Below, piece by piece: positions 2,844 to 12,841 of a stretch of DNA of 37,228 bases; the first letter of the stretch is position 1, and the number at the start of each line of letters is the position of its first letter. The notes under the pieces are model-generated. The model had not been told where the DNA came from, did no database searches, and saw only the letters and a list, made by a program, of their open reading frames with translations. Source of the DNA: Thermoanaerobaculia bacterium (GTDB taxonomy: Bacteria; Acidobacteriota; Thermoanaerobaculia; UBA5066; DATFVB01); contig DASTIQ010000175.1 of NCBI GenBank assembly GCA_035717485.1, positions 1-37,228 on the forward strand, given 5' to 3'. Position numbers and translations under genes: made by a program.

Positions 2844-2846
2844 CGC

Positions 2847-2876
2847 GCGCGGCGATGCATCGAGCCGAGCGGGCGC
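2847..2876. repeat. Dispersed 30-nt repeat, copy A
   Basis: This matches 10878-10907 at 28 of 30 positions; the differences are at 2857 and 2868. It begins four bases after the TetR stop. CGAGCCG at 2861-2867 can pair with CGGCTCG at 2924-2930, so this copy also sits on the edge of a hairpin-like segment, though a much more degenerate one than copy B. Confidence 0.6.
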
Positions 2877-8024: not shown

Positions 8025-10868
8025 ATGCGAATCGCTCGGCGGGTTCTCCTCCTCGGGACGTTCCTCGCGTTCGCCGCGGTCACCGCCGCCCAGACGACCG
8101 GCTCCATCTCGGGACGGGTGAGCGACGAAAACGGCGGTGCCCTTCCCGGAGTCGCGGTCGAAGCGCACGGCGCCGCGCTGCAGGGCCGGGCGCAGGCGAC
8201 GACGGATTCGGGGGGCGGCTACCGCCTGCCGCTCCTTCCGCCCGGCAATTACGAGATTTCCGTCGCGCTTTCCGGTTTCGCCGCGGCCAACCGCGCGACG
8301 TCGGTCGCGCTCGGCGCCGACACCCGCATCGACTTCACGATGCGCCCCTCCGCGAAGGAGGTCGTGACCGTGACGGCCGGCACGCCCGTGATCGACCAGA
8401 CGAGCACGACGATCGGCGCCAACATCGACGAGCACACGATCCGAACGCTCCCGACGGACCGGAATTTCGCCTCGATCGCCCAGGTCGTTCCCGGCGTGTC
8501 CACCCAGACCGACCCTTACAACCCGACCAACGACTCGACGGCGATCACCGTCTACGGCTCCTCGAAGTCGGAAAACGCGTACGTCATCGACGGCGTCGAC
8601 ACGAGCGGCGTCGAATACGGGACGCAGGGAACGACGCTGAACTACGAGTTCATCCAGGAGATGGAGGTCAAGACCGGCGGTTACGAGGCGGAGTACGGCC
8701 GTTCGACCGGCGGGATCATCAACGTGATCACGAAGTCGGGCGGGAACGAATTCCACGGCGACGTGTTCGGCTACTACGACAGCGACTCCCTGCAGGCGAA
8801 CAACGCTCACGTCGGCGAGAGCGCGCAGGGTGCGTCGAACGGCTACAAGCGCGCGGACGTCGGCGTCGACGTCGGCGGATTCATCGTGCGCGACCGGCTG
8901 TGGTTCTTCGGCGCGTACAACCGCGTCGACAATACGATCAAGAACGTCCTCACGGCCGGCCCGAGCGTCGGGGAGGAGTTCGACACGAAGTCGATCCGCA
9001 ACCTCGCCGCCGGGAAGCTCACCTACCGCATCGGCGAGCAGGGAACGCTGCTGGCGTCTTATTTCGCGGATCCCCGCGTGGACACCGGCGCGATCAACGA
9101 CGCCAACCACACGCTGGACGGAGAGCCGAACACGTTCCTCGGCCGGCAGGACTTCGGCGGCCCCAACTATGCGCTGCGGGGAGACTATCTCTTCGGGGGC
9201 TCGTGGCTCGTGCAGCTCCAGGCCGCGCGTCACGAGGAGCGGAACGCGATCGGGCCGGCCTCGGCGGCCGGCGACGTCGTCGAGTACGTCGACCAGACCA
9301 ACGGAAGCTTCCAGACCGGCGGGTTCGGCCTCATCCAGAAGAAGGATTTCGCGCGCAACCATTTCGGCGCCGCGCTCACGAAGTACCTCGGCGCCCACGA
9401 GATCAAGGGGGGCCTCGAGTACGAGCGCGAGACGGCGGACGTGATCAAGCGGATGTCGGGCGGGCAGCAGGTGCTGATCTTCGCGAATCCGAATACGGCG
9501 TCGGCGCAGCCGCTCATCTACCAGCACAACTACTGGACGACGCCGACGGCCTCGATCGCCGACGCGCCGCTTTCCGAGCTCAACGCGAGTCCCGCCCACA
9601 AGATGACGACGGCGTACCTCCAGGACACCTGGAACGCCCTCCCGAACCTGACCGTCAACCTCGGCGTCCGGTGGGACCGGCAGCAGATCATCGACTCCGC
9701 GGGTGTCCAGCAGATCGACCTGAAGAAGGACTACGCCCCACGCTTCGGTTTCGTGTGGGACCCGACGCGCGACCACAAGACGAAGGTCTACGGATCCTTC
9801 GGCCGCTACTACGAAGAGATCCCGATGGACCTCGTCATCCGGTCGTATTCGTACGAGCGCCAGCCGCACATCTACAACTACTCACCGACCGACTTCCATC
9901 CCGACCCGAACGCGGAGGCGGATCTCGGGAAACAGTCGAACATCGTCGGCGCGAACATCGAACCGGCCGATCCAAACCTCCACGGCCAGTACCTCCGCGA
10001 ATTCGTGATCGGGGGCGAGCGCGAGGTGATGCCGGACTTCGCGATCGGCGTCAAGTACGTCTACCGCAACTACGGCGAGGTGATCGAGGATTTCCTCTCC
10101 GATCCCGCGGCCGGCGTCTACTCCATCGGAAATCCCGGCGAAGGAATCATGAAGAACGTCTACGACTACAACTACGACGCGACGCCGTACCCGGCGCAGA
10201 AGCCGCAGCGGATCTTCCGCGGCGTGGAGATCGACGCCACGAAGCGTTTCTCGAACCGCTGGTCCATGCTCGCGTCGTATCTCTGGTCGAAGCTCGACGG
10301 CAACTACGACGGCGAGTTCGCGCCGTTCACGAACGTCGGAGCGGATCCGAACATCTCGGCCGCGTACGACTACGCGGATTTCGCCACGAACCATTTCCTG
10401 GACGGCACGCTCGCGAGCTATTCCCCGATCACGAACGGCGGCCCGCTCTCCAACGACCGCCGGAGCCAGGCGAAGCTGTCCGGCACGTACACGGCGCCTT
10501 TCGGGTTGAACGTCGGGCTGTCGGCCTACTACCAGACGGGGGCGCCGCTCTCGCGGATGGGCTTCGTCGACGGCTACGGGCGGTACGAGCTCTTTCTGAC
10601 CAAACGCGGTTCGGAAGGACGGAGCCCGAGCATCTACGAGGCGGATCTCCACCTGGGATATCCCCTCGTCCTGAAACCGGTGACGATCAATCTGATGGCC
10701 GACGTCTTCAACCTCCTGAATGCCCAGCGGCCGGTGCTCCTCGATCAGCGATGGGATTTCCAGGAGGCGGACAATTCGAGTCCGACGCCGACGAACCCGA
10801 ATTACAAGAAGGCGGTGTTGCGCCAGCCGCCGCGCAGCGTGAGGTTCGGCGTCCGGGTGTCCTTCTAG
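8025..10868 (+). CDS. Oar-like TonB-dependent receptor with carboxypeptidase-regulatory domain
   Basis: This 947-residue outer-membrane protein has a signal peptide (1-23, cleaved near VTAAQT). An Ig-like carboxypeptidase-regulatory domain follows at about 25-105 (GSISGRVSDENGGALPGV, GGYRLPLLPPGNYEISV). The TonB plug is at about 115-240 (ENAYVIDGVDTSGVEYG, TGGIINVITKSGGNEFHG), and a large barrel ends in the terminal Phe of RFGVRVSF. This architecture is heavily expanded in Acidobacteriota and in Myxococcus Oar proteins, where it is linked to adhesion or uptake of polymers. The ATG follows AAAGGAG. No substrate-degrading enzyme is adjacent, so the ligand is unknown. A 96-nt palindrome begins 23 bases after the stop. 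Confidence 0.93.
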   Translation: MRIARRVLLLGTFLAFAAVTAAQTTGSISGRVSDENGGALPGVAVEAHGAALQGRAQATTDSGGGYRLPLLPPGNYEISVALSGFAAANRATSVALGADTRIDFTMRPSAKEVVTVTAGTPVIDQTSTTIGANIDEHTIRTLPTDRNFASIAQVVPGVSTQTDPYNPTNDSTAITVYGSSKSENAYVIDGVDTSGVEYGTQGTTLNYEFIQEMEVKTGGYEAEYGRSTGGIINVITKSGGNEFHGDVFGYYDSDSLQANNAHVGESAQGASNGYKRADVGVDVGGFIVRDRLWFFGAYNRVDNTIKNVLTAGPSVGEEFDTKSIRNLAAGKLTYRIGEQGTLLASYFADPRVDTGAINDANHTLDGEPNTFLGRQDFGGPNYALRGDYLFGGSWLVQLQAARHEERNAIGPASAAGDVVEYVDQTNGSFQTGGFGLIQKKDFARNHFGAALTKYLGAHEIKGGLEYERETADVIKRMSGGQQVLIFANPNTASAQPLIYQHNYWTTPTASIADAPLSELNASPAHKMTTAYLQDTWNALPNLTVNLGVRWDRQQIIDSAGVQQIDLKKDYAPRFGFVWDPTRDHKTKVYGSFGRYYEEIPMDLVIRSYSYERQPHIYNYSPTDFHPDPNAEADLGKQSNIVGANIEPADPNLHGQYLREFVIGGEREVMPDFAIGVKYVYRNYGEVIEDFLSDPAAGVYSIGNPGEGIMKNVYDYNYDATPYPAQKPQRIFRGVEIDATKRFSNRWSMLASYLWSKLDGNYDGEFAPFTNVGADPNISAAYDYADFATNHFLDGTLASYSPITNGGPLSNDRRSQAKLSGTYTAPFGLNVGLSAYYQTGAPLSRMGFVDGYGRYELFLTKRGSEGRSPSIYEADLHLGYPLVLKPVTINLMADVFNLLNAQRPVLLDQRWDFQEADNSSPTPTNPNYKKAVLRQPPRSVRFGVRVSF

Positions 10869-10877
10869 CGAGGCGAG

Positions 10878-10907
10878 GCGCGGCGATCCATCGAGCCGGG
10901 CGGGCGC
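10878..10907. repeat. Dispersed 30-nt repeat, copy B
   Basis: This second copy of the element at 2847-2876 (28 of 30 identical) begins nine bases after a stop codon. It runs into the left arm of the large palindrome at 10892-10987. Confidence 0.6.
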
Positions 10908-10987
10908 GGGCCGCCGCGTGACCCTCCGACGTACGTTTCAGTACGCCTGCGGGTCCCGCGGGGGCGGCCCGCATCCCGCCGGGCTCG
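10892..10987. repeat. 96-nt imperfect palindrome
   Basis: The arms fold from the outside inwards. CGAGCC (10892-10897) pairs with GGCTCG (10982-10987), GGCGGG pairs with CCCGCC, and GCGGGCCGCC (10906-10915) pairs with GGCGGCCCGC (10963-10972). GACCC (10920-10924) then pairs with GGGTC (10951-10955). The tip is CGTAC (10930-10934) against GTACG (10941-10945) around GTTTCA. Only a few mismatches and short bulges interrupt it. It lies downstream of the Oar-like receptor and upstream of the 3' end of the convergent gene at 11111. Confidence 0.8.
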
Positions 10988-11058
10988 CGTCTGGCCGCGC
11001 CATCCTCCGAAGGGTTGACCTCGAACCACCGCTGGCGAAGGTGATCTCGCCGGTCTGC

Positions 11059-11084
11059 GTCATTCCGAACGAATGTGAGGAATC
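11059..11084. repeat. Interspersed GTCATTCC...GGAATC repeat
   Basis: This intergenic segment runs from GTCATTCCGAAC to GTGAGGAATC, with ATTCC and GGAAT as inverted ends. It resembles the short extragenic repeat that translates as NE(C)EES or SFGMT-type peptides in many bacterial annotations. Only one copy is seen in this window, so membership of that family rests on recognition, not on copies here. Confidence 0.45.
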
Positions 11085-11110
11085 CTCGTCGGTTCTGCGC
11101 TGGCGCGAGC

Positions 11111-12841
11111 TCAGCGGGCGCGGGCGGGGGACGGCGCATCCCAAGGGCTCGCCGGCGTGGGCGTCATCGCCACGGGCGGCCCTTCCTTCGGCGAAAGCGT
11201 CTCCCGAAGCTGCTTCAGGAGCTGCGCCATCGTCGGATCCTTCGGCTGCGGCCAGAGATAGCGGACGATCCGGAGCGCCGCGGCCCGGTTTCCGGAGTCG
11301 AGCTCGGTCTGGGCCTCTTCTTCCAGCCGAACCCGCGTCTCCTCCGGGAAGCCCTGCTCCAGCGCGTACGCGAGCCGTTCCTCGAGCGTGCGGCGCGCGA
11401 GTCCCGTGTCGTGGAGCGCCCGTGCGAGAAAGATCCGCTTGGCGAGGATGCAGGCGACCGCGTCGTCGCAAGGGGCGTTCGCGTCCGCCGCCTTCTCGAC
11501 GGCGGCGAGCCGGGCCCATCCGTCCTCCGGAAGGGAGGACGGCGCGTATCCCGCCGTGTCGAGCCACCGCTGGTTGACCGCCAGCGCGCCGGCGAAGTCT
11601 CTTCGATCCATCGCCGCGAGCATCATGCCGTCGAGGACGTCGAGGCGCACCCCGACGGGCATGACGGTCGCCGGCAGGTCCGCGAGCGCCCGCCATTCGC
11701 GCGCCGACTCTTCCCGATCGAGGCGGTCGAGCGTCCGGATCGAGGCGAGCCGCAGGTCCCAGTTCGCCGGTTCCGCGCGGATCGCCTCGCGCACGATCTC
11801 CGCGGCGGCGGGCGCGGCGTCCTTGCCGCGCGTCCGGATGAGCCGCTCCGCGAGCGACCACGACACCGTTCGGCAGTAGTTCCCGGAGAGCGCCGCCGCG
11901 ACCGGATCGGCCGGTTCGAAAGGGCACTTCGCGAGGAGGGCGGCGAGGGGAGCGGGCTTTCCGAGCAGCCGGTCGAGATACGCGACGAAGATCGTCTCGA
12001 ACGCGGGATTGTCGTCCGCCGGATCGGAGACGAACGCCGCCGCGAGCCTCCGCGCTTCGGCGAGGTCGCCGCCGCTCAGATGCAGGTAGCCCGCCCATCC
12101 GGACCGGAAGGGCCCGGCCGCCGGTCCCTGGTCCTCGATCATCGTCCGGTAGAGGTCCGACACGAACTGGCGGACCTGCCGGTCCGATACGAAGTAGCGG
12201 GGCTTTTCTCCGGGGAGCGCGGCCGCGGCTTCGATTTCGTCCTTTCCGGGAGATCCGTACGTGGCTTCGCTTCCGTGCTCGAGGAGGAACGCGATTCCGA
12301 GGTCGTCGGAAGGACGGAGCGCGATCATCCGGACTCCCGCGCGGGCCCGTTCGTTCCCGCGCGGCAGCTCGGCGGCCGAGTTGCGGAGCTCGTATTCCGC
12401 GGCGCGGCGATCCTGCGGGGACATCTTTTCCGCGGCCGACCGTTCCTCGGCGAACCAGGCGGCGAGCAGGTCGGAGGAACCCTCGTCCTTCTTCGCGTTC
12501 ACCGCCGCGACCCGGGCCCGGTATCCGAGCGAGAGACAGACCATGTCCTCCATCGTCCGCAGCTGGGCCGCGGATGGCTCGAGAGAGCCCGGGGTCGGGG
12601 CGAATTCCGGAGAGAGCAGACGCCCGCAGACCGCCTCGCGGAGCTTCGGGTCCGACTCGAGCGCCCGCCGGACGTCGGCGCCGAACGGATGCTTCGGATC
12701 GCGGGTGAGATACGCCTCCGGCGCCGCCCCGGGCGGAAACCAGATCTTCCGCGCTTCGTCGAAGACCCCGGAGGTCTGAGCGGGGGAGGGACGTGTCGCG
12801 GCGAGGACCGCCGCGGCGGCGAAGAGAAGCGAACGGCGCAT
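11111..12841 (-). CDS. Exported alpha-helical (TPR-like) protein of unknown function
   Basis: This 576-residue protein has a signal peptide (1-20, near PSPAQT). The mature part is almost entirely helical, with alternating Ala/Leu/Arg helices from about residue 230 on (LRLASIRTLDRLDREESAREW, ARRTLEERLAYALEQGF), consistent with degenerate TPR or solenoid repeats. Four cysteines in the middle (KCPFEP, NYCRTV, PCDDAVACIL) may form disulfides. The C-terminus is Pro-rich. The start has no Shine-Dalgarno, but TAAACT lies eight bases upstream. The gene is convergent with the Oar-like receptor. I do not recognise a named family; a scaffold role in the periplasm is possible. Confidence 0.72.
   Translation of the reverse strand: MRRSLLFAAAAVLAATRPSPAQTSGVFDEARKIWFPPGAAPEAYLTRDPKHPFGADVRRALESDPKLREAVCGRLLSPEFAPTPGSLEPSAAQLRTMEDMVCLSLGYRARVAAVNAKKDEGSSDLLAAWFAEERSAAEKMSPQDRRAAEYELRNSAAELPRGNERARAGVRMIALRPSDDLGIAFLLEHGSEATYGSPGKDEIEAAAALPGEKPRYFVSDRQVRQFVSDLYRTMIEDQGPAAGPFRSGWAGYLHLSGGDLAEARRLAAAFVSDPADDNPAFETIFVAYLDRLLGKPAPLAALLAKCPFEPADPVAAALSGNYCRTVSWSLAERLIRTRGKDAAPAAAEIVREAIRAEPANWDLRLASIRTLDRLDREESAREWRALADLPATVMPVGVRLDVLDGMMLAAMDRRDFAGALAVNQRWLDTAGYAPSSLPEDGWARLAAVEKAADANAPCDDAVACILAKRIFLARALHDTGLARRTLEERLAYALEQGFPEETRVRLEEEAQTELDSGNRAAALRIVRYLWPQPKDPTMAQLLKQLRETLSPKEGPPVAMTPTPASPWDAPSPARAR

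Follow-up and report, generated by a model that had tools for sequence, protein, structure and literature searches.

Which described repeats come closest to the palindrome reported here? REPs are units of 20–40 bp that lie less than 20 bp from the 3′ ends of open reading frames, where their GTAG ends provide TAG stops (PMC3733652). Those of E. coli reportedly cause ribosome stalling if the distance to a stop codon is 15 nt or less, according to a paper that cites earlier work (PMC12306157). REPINs, e.g. those of Pseudomonas fluorescens SBW25, are composed of conserved ends and a variable spacer and display compensatory changes; the GI REPIN holds ~71 bp between its two conserved ends (PMC3116915). 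TIRtrons and TIRYT elements are known from Acidobacteria, among others; here, a tyrosine transposase is accompanied by longer terminal repeats able to form small repeat families, and the motif GGGGWSAS has been published for TIRYT elements (PMC3733652).

The window analyzed here, a stretch of 37,228 nt from a Thermoanaerobaculia bacterium, contains a full-length copy of a palindromic element that has much in common with these repeats. As in REPINs, two inverted, conserved ends enclose a less conserved, base-paired middle with compensatory changes, and the copies are extragenic, partly clustered in tandem with repeated spacers, and accompanied by solitary remnants. As with the REP/BIME sequences of E. 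coli and the GTAG/CGTC-tagged REPs, we are dealing with high-copy palindromes, of which tens to hundreds are scattered over extragenic DNA near the 3′ ends of open reading frames and with TAG stops at their edge, and going by the account for E. coli, an effect on translation is conceivable where the stop is no more than 15 nt away. There are differences, too. At ~125–130 bp, the element exceeds the REPIN in length and, compared to REPs, forms one long asymmetric hairpin; its orientation is fixed, the left end being placed at a stop codon; a fixed GTAG (or GTGG/CGTC) tag is missing from the foot of the hairpin; and a cognate RAYT flanked by the inverted repeat was found neither in its own genome (G000) nor in that of a congener (G001). 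Given the lack of a fixed tag and of a cognate RAYT, the greater length and the strict orientation, we report the element as a variant rather than filing it as a REPIN. Since near-stop REPs have already been published, the kind as such is known, and the element represents a variant of it that is long and strictly oriented.

The palindrome in the window

The initial annotation had described a 96-nt palindrome downstream of an Oar-like receptor gene, far longer than an intrinsic terminator and devoid of a T-tract. Its pairing and tip stand: sequence inspection confirmed the inner pairing at 10892–10987, with the tip CGTAC-GTTTCA-GTACG at 10930–10945, and the segment 10880–11000 folds at −85.7 kcal/mol, as compared to a mean of −67.3 (s.d. 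3.9; z = −4.8) for 200 dinucleotide-preserving shuffles, none of which (0/200) was as stable as the native segment. Its ends, in contrast, had been drawn too narrowly. Comparison with other copies extends the full element to ~10874–11003 and adds an 8-bp outer stem, in which GGCGCGGC (10877–10884) pairs with GCCGCGCC (10994–11001) and which, in the window copy, is separated from the inner palindrome by a small internal loop. The window copy is a full-length member of what we term family 1 and scores 110.7 bits against our covariance model (R1). The lack of a T-tract at the palindrome was borne out, and neither terminator-like nor promoter-like matches occur at 10800–11200; likewise, no Rfam 15 covariance model matches the element at its gathering score. 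The relevant features of the window are as follows:

2844..2873, + strand: truncated second family-1 copy, left end only (left-end pattern search)
8025..10868, + strand: Oar-like TonB-dependent receptor with CarboxypepD_reg, Plug and beta-barrel domains (open reading frame, Pfam, codon-based gene call)
10866..10868, + strand: TAG stop codon of the receptor, anchor of the element, 5 nt before the model start (sequence)
10874..11003, + strand: family-1 palindromic element, full-length copy (model R1, alignment)
10877..10884, + strand: left arm of the outer stem, GGCGCGGC (sequence, alignment A1)
10892..10934, + strand: left arm of the inner palindrome (fold)
10935..10940, + strand: apical loop GTTTCA (fold)
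10941..10987, + strand: right arm of the inner palindrome (fold)
10994..11001, + strand: right arm of the outer stem, GCCGCGCC (sequence, alignment A1)
11111..12841, − strand: convergent downstream gene without a Pfam family (open reading frame, gene call, Pfam)

The stop codon of the convergent gene is 107 nt away from the right end of the element. Neither this gene nor the receptor has a match in the congener, so the window copy lacks an ortholog for comparison. The truncated second copy resides directly 3′ of the TAG (2841–2843) of a TetR-like gene (2283–2843), and the bases following it, up to ~2990, resemble another repeat found behind stop codons of the congener.

Across the copies aligned (alignment A1), the ends are conserved whereas the middle varies, yet remains base-paired, with 94.5% of cells being paired. 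Changes on both sides affect 12 of 29 pairs, as opposed to 5.8 in shuffles, and cells with double changes amount to 60, compared to 18 in shuffles and to 3–13 when the partner is slid by 1–3 columns. Some pairs are fully reversed among copies, as exemplified by columns 52–89 (CG 13, GC 13). Compensatory changes, which the initial annotation had named as something to look for, are thus seen across copies, and also between orthologous ones: in 11 orthologous copy pairs, both partners of 22 base pairs had changed with the pairing retained, while the same substitutions placed randomly in the stems produce ~10 double hits of any kind. Paired bases of orthologous copies change less than unpaired bases. 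The stem structure is under constraint; the covariation counts cannot tell apart selection on the RNA, selection on a DNA hairpin, and hairpin-templated repair.

Copies behind stop codons in two species

In the own genome (3.81 Mb, 339 contigs), BLAST with a 121-nt query yielded 49 matches, and a covariance model built from 29 copies yielded 92. After removal of opposite-strand duplicates and the weakest matches, the latter fall on ~86 distinct places, amounting to at least 80 copies, and the only congener examined has at least 150 model matches. The palindrome is hence anything but single-copy, and with the repeats probably breaking the assemblies, these counts would be lower bounds. Left ends alone are found 103 times in the own genome (≤2 mismatches), versus 3 times for the reversed pattern, so many truncated copies exist as well. 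Another 59 genomes from this order or class yielded 0 matches, under stricter filters that weak copies could escape. We also considered a wider distribution, as an exact 22-base pattern met five single matches in 85k named genomes (a set that may lack records of the own or very near genomes), but these fall into unrelated phyla, score no higher than 22.7 bits against the model and were taken as chance. Viral contigs contain no match to the element. Copies are often located at contig ends (e.g. G000:C107:5553–5680 and G001:C289:14648–14777).

Where do the copies lie relative to genes? Over both genomes, the left end is within −6 to +15 nt of the upstream stop codon in 120 of 143 codirectional cases. 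Specifically, a codirectional upstream gene precedes 72 of the 86 copies in the own genome (65 of the 72 within that range) and 71 of 87 in the congener (55 of the 71), with genes being called with a codon-usage model that renders stop codons exact and starts rough. Most of the 23 remaining cases (17) are more than 150 nt away, these being mainly copies in second or third place within tandem arrays. Placing a 130-bp segment randomly, in random orientation, in intergenic DNA brings only 7.1% and 4.7% into range; the corresponding binomial probabilities are below 1e-53, albeit array copies are not independent. On the downstream side, convergent and codirectional genes are similarly frequent. A functional link between the upstream genes did not emerge, with 113 Pfam families over 46 genes and no family common to them, and a regulon reading was dropped. 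Some copies without an adjacent stop codon follow T-rich tracts instead (G000:C27:2188–2486, G001:C164:12853, G001:C91:8862), of which the one at C27 belongs to a canonical intrinsic terminator.

Stop-codon usage differs at the element. Genes bearing it end in TAG (79), TGA (24) or TAA (12), as compared to 182, 490 and 59 for genes without it. The share of TGA is ~20% at elements versus 59–67% at other genes (Fisher p ~1e-20) and TAG differs weakly from TAA (p = 0.025), the effect being mainly a loss of TGA. At one locus aligned in both flanks (G000 C87:6777), TAG is accompanied by the element and the ortholog has TGA and no element, a comparison made in absence of an outgroup. We considered a fixed GTAG tag as in REPs, but while TAG is enriched, it is mostly the stop codon itself, at variable distance from the hairpin, and unlike in REPs the preceding base is not enriched for G (0.32 at elements, 0.43 elsewhere). 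Such a varying distance is hard to reconcile with a stop-like tag being recognized directly.

To our knowledge, the reason why REP-type repeats gather directly behind stop codons is unsettled. Here, the anchoring is nearly absolute, one-sided and replicated in two species, and it comes with a threefold depletion of TGA. Insertion preference and later selection should thereby become separable with a few more genomes.

Roughly a dozen orthologous sites carry a family-1 copy in both species. The fraction of such sites is biased upward, as many congener loci had been chosen for holding copies, and the notion that most copies are conserved at orthologous sites proved an artefact of this choice: in contigs taken regardless of site, most orthologous stops hold a remnant, another repeat (the second palindromic family described below included), or nothing at all. 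Since occupied and unoccupied orthologous sites coexist, there is gain or loss of sites alongside copies that persist, whereby presence or absence in two species without an outgroup is not readable as gain rather than loss.

Origin and possible role

Taken together, the element is probably a non-autonomous dispersed repeat of REPIN-like type that is restricted to the genus and whose hairpin would form part of the transcript, immediately following the stop codon. It would spread in the form of a hairpin of single-stranded DNA, which an enzyme acting in trans, probably a single-strand transposase of the HUH type, would move. As its left end follows the stop codon at −5 to +15 nt, the element would be transcribed along with the gene, and the very stable hairpin would then encounter the terminating ribosome and 3′ exonucleases. 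Most likely it would dampen translation or set the 3′ end of the mRNA, as is reported for E. coli REPs within 15 nt of a stop; judging from its location and the work in E. coli, the hairpin probably influences the termination of translation or of the mRNA. Depletion of TGA might arise from insertion itself, through the target or through donated bases, or alternatively because the leakiest of the stops is selected against when a stable hairpin follows. Going further, insertion of the mobile hairpin might be specific to the stop codons of genes under translation, occur in a single orientation and be coupled to the termination of transcription or translation, shifting the stop usage of the host genes from TGA to TAG, which we deem decidedly unlikely. 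Of the three readings in the initial annotation, a REP/BIME-like mobile palindrome was largely right, given the dispersed copies, the tandem clusters, the compensatory changes and the mixture of occupied and unoccupied orthologous sites. A structured 3′ RNA end would be compatible with the sense-oriented placement at stop codons, whereas the small RNA found no backing.

Could the element instead be a non-mobile, cis-acting RNA module, i.e. a stabilizer of mRNA 3′ ends or a U-less terminator, whose rare duplications were kept for function? Its sense orientation and stop-codon anchoring argue for this, as do the dozen or so copies at orthologous congener sites and the covariation of orthologous copies amid flanking intergenic DNA that often cannot be aligned. 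However, such a module sits uneasily with the restriction to a single genus, with unrelated upstream genes, with tandem arrays whose spacers are duplicated, and with the many orthologous stops at which a remnant or the other palindromic family takes its place or the site is empty; moreover, a canonical terminator of hairpin and T-run is present in the own genome (C27). We therefore consider it unlikely. An ordinary intrinsic terminator or small RNA gene, to which a stable hairpin after a stop codon might likewise point, is very improbable: the GC-rich hairpin is not followed by a T-tract, which contradicts a canonical terminator, there is neither a promoter-like match nor an Rfam family at gathering score, and the sequence is conserved in ~86 copies.

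Two further explanations invoke mobility of other kinds. A classical MITE, non-autonomous but related to a DDE insertion sequence and having GGCGCGGC as terminal inverted repeats, would account for inverted ends, which are common to the second palindromic family (GAGGCGCGGCSAGRCG). Yet, a target-site duplication was not recognized at the compared sites, a non-exhaustive search retrieved no transposase with matching ends, and compensatory evolution along the whole stem would not be expected, leaving this origin quite improbable. In integron gene cassettes, an imperfect palindrome directly follows the stop codon, in fixed orientation and position. The element resembles attC in precisely these respects, and might by analogy be a hairpin recombination site at the ends of genes that move as cassettes. 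This is scarcely credible, though, as the GTTRRRY core (R′/R″) is absent from both ends in alignment A1, no cassette arrays are seen, and at an orthologous site (C94/C272) both flanking genes are conserved and the element alone differs, implying that it does not travel with the gene.

Transposases and neighboring repeats

Searching for a mobilizer, we found Pfam Y1_Tnp, and with it a RAYT transposase, to be absent from the own genome. The congener encodes a single Y1_Tnp protein, directly behind an array of family-1 copies (Y1_Tnp/DnaA-C transposase at G001:C147:6072–7019), with atypical codon usage (GC3 0.76). Its terminal repeat, GGGGTCAG, fits the GGGGWSAS motif of TIRYT elements. This gene adjoins the copy array, yet its boundaries are formed by an inverted GGGGTCAGATCTGT repeat of its own, which does not match the ends of the element, and the gene was hence rejected as the mobilizer; going by these boundaries, it is more likely a guest that inserted into the array than the mover. 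What we observe is a REPIN-like family that persists without a detectable RAYT.

A second palindromic family of similar length has the ends GAGGCGCGGCCAGACGTG...CGTATAACGGCGCG (e.g. G000:C245:7256–7396). The own genome contains 49 matches to it, a number that includes fragments or opposite-strand duplicates, and in some orthologs it is this family that sits at the same stop codons. One of its ends resembles the reverse complement of the right end of family 1. In the congener, at G001:C338:1360–2060 and G001:C178:2209–2779, family-1 copies are interrupted by, or interleaved with, a CGCCTTCGCCGAGGCTTCGGCGCGAC-type repeat, and arrays with duplicated spacers occur.
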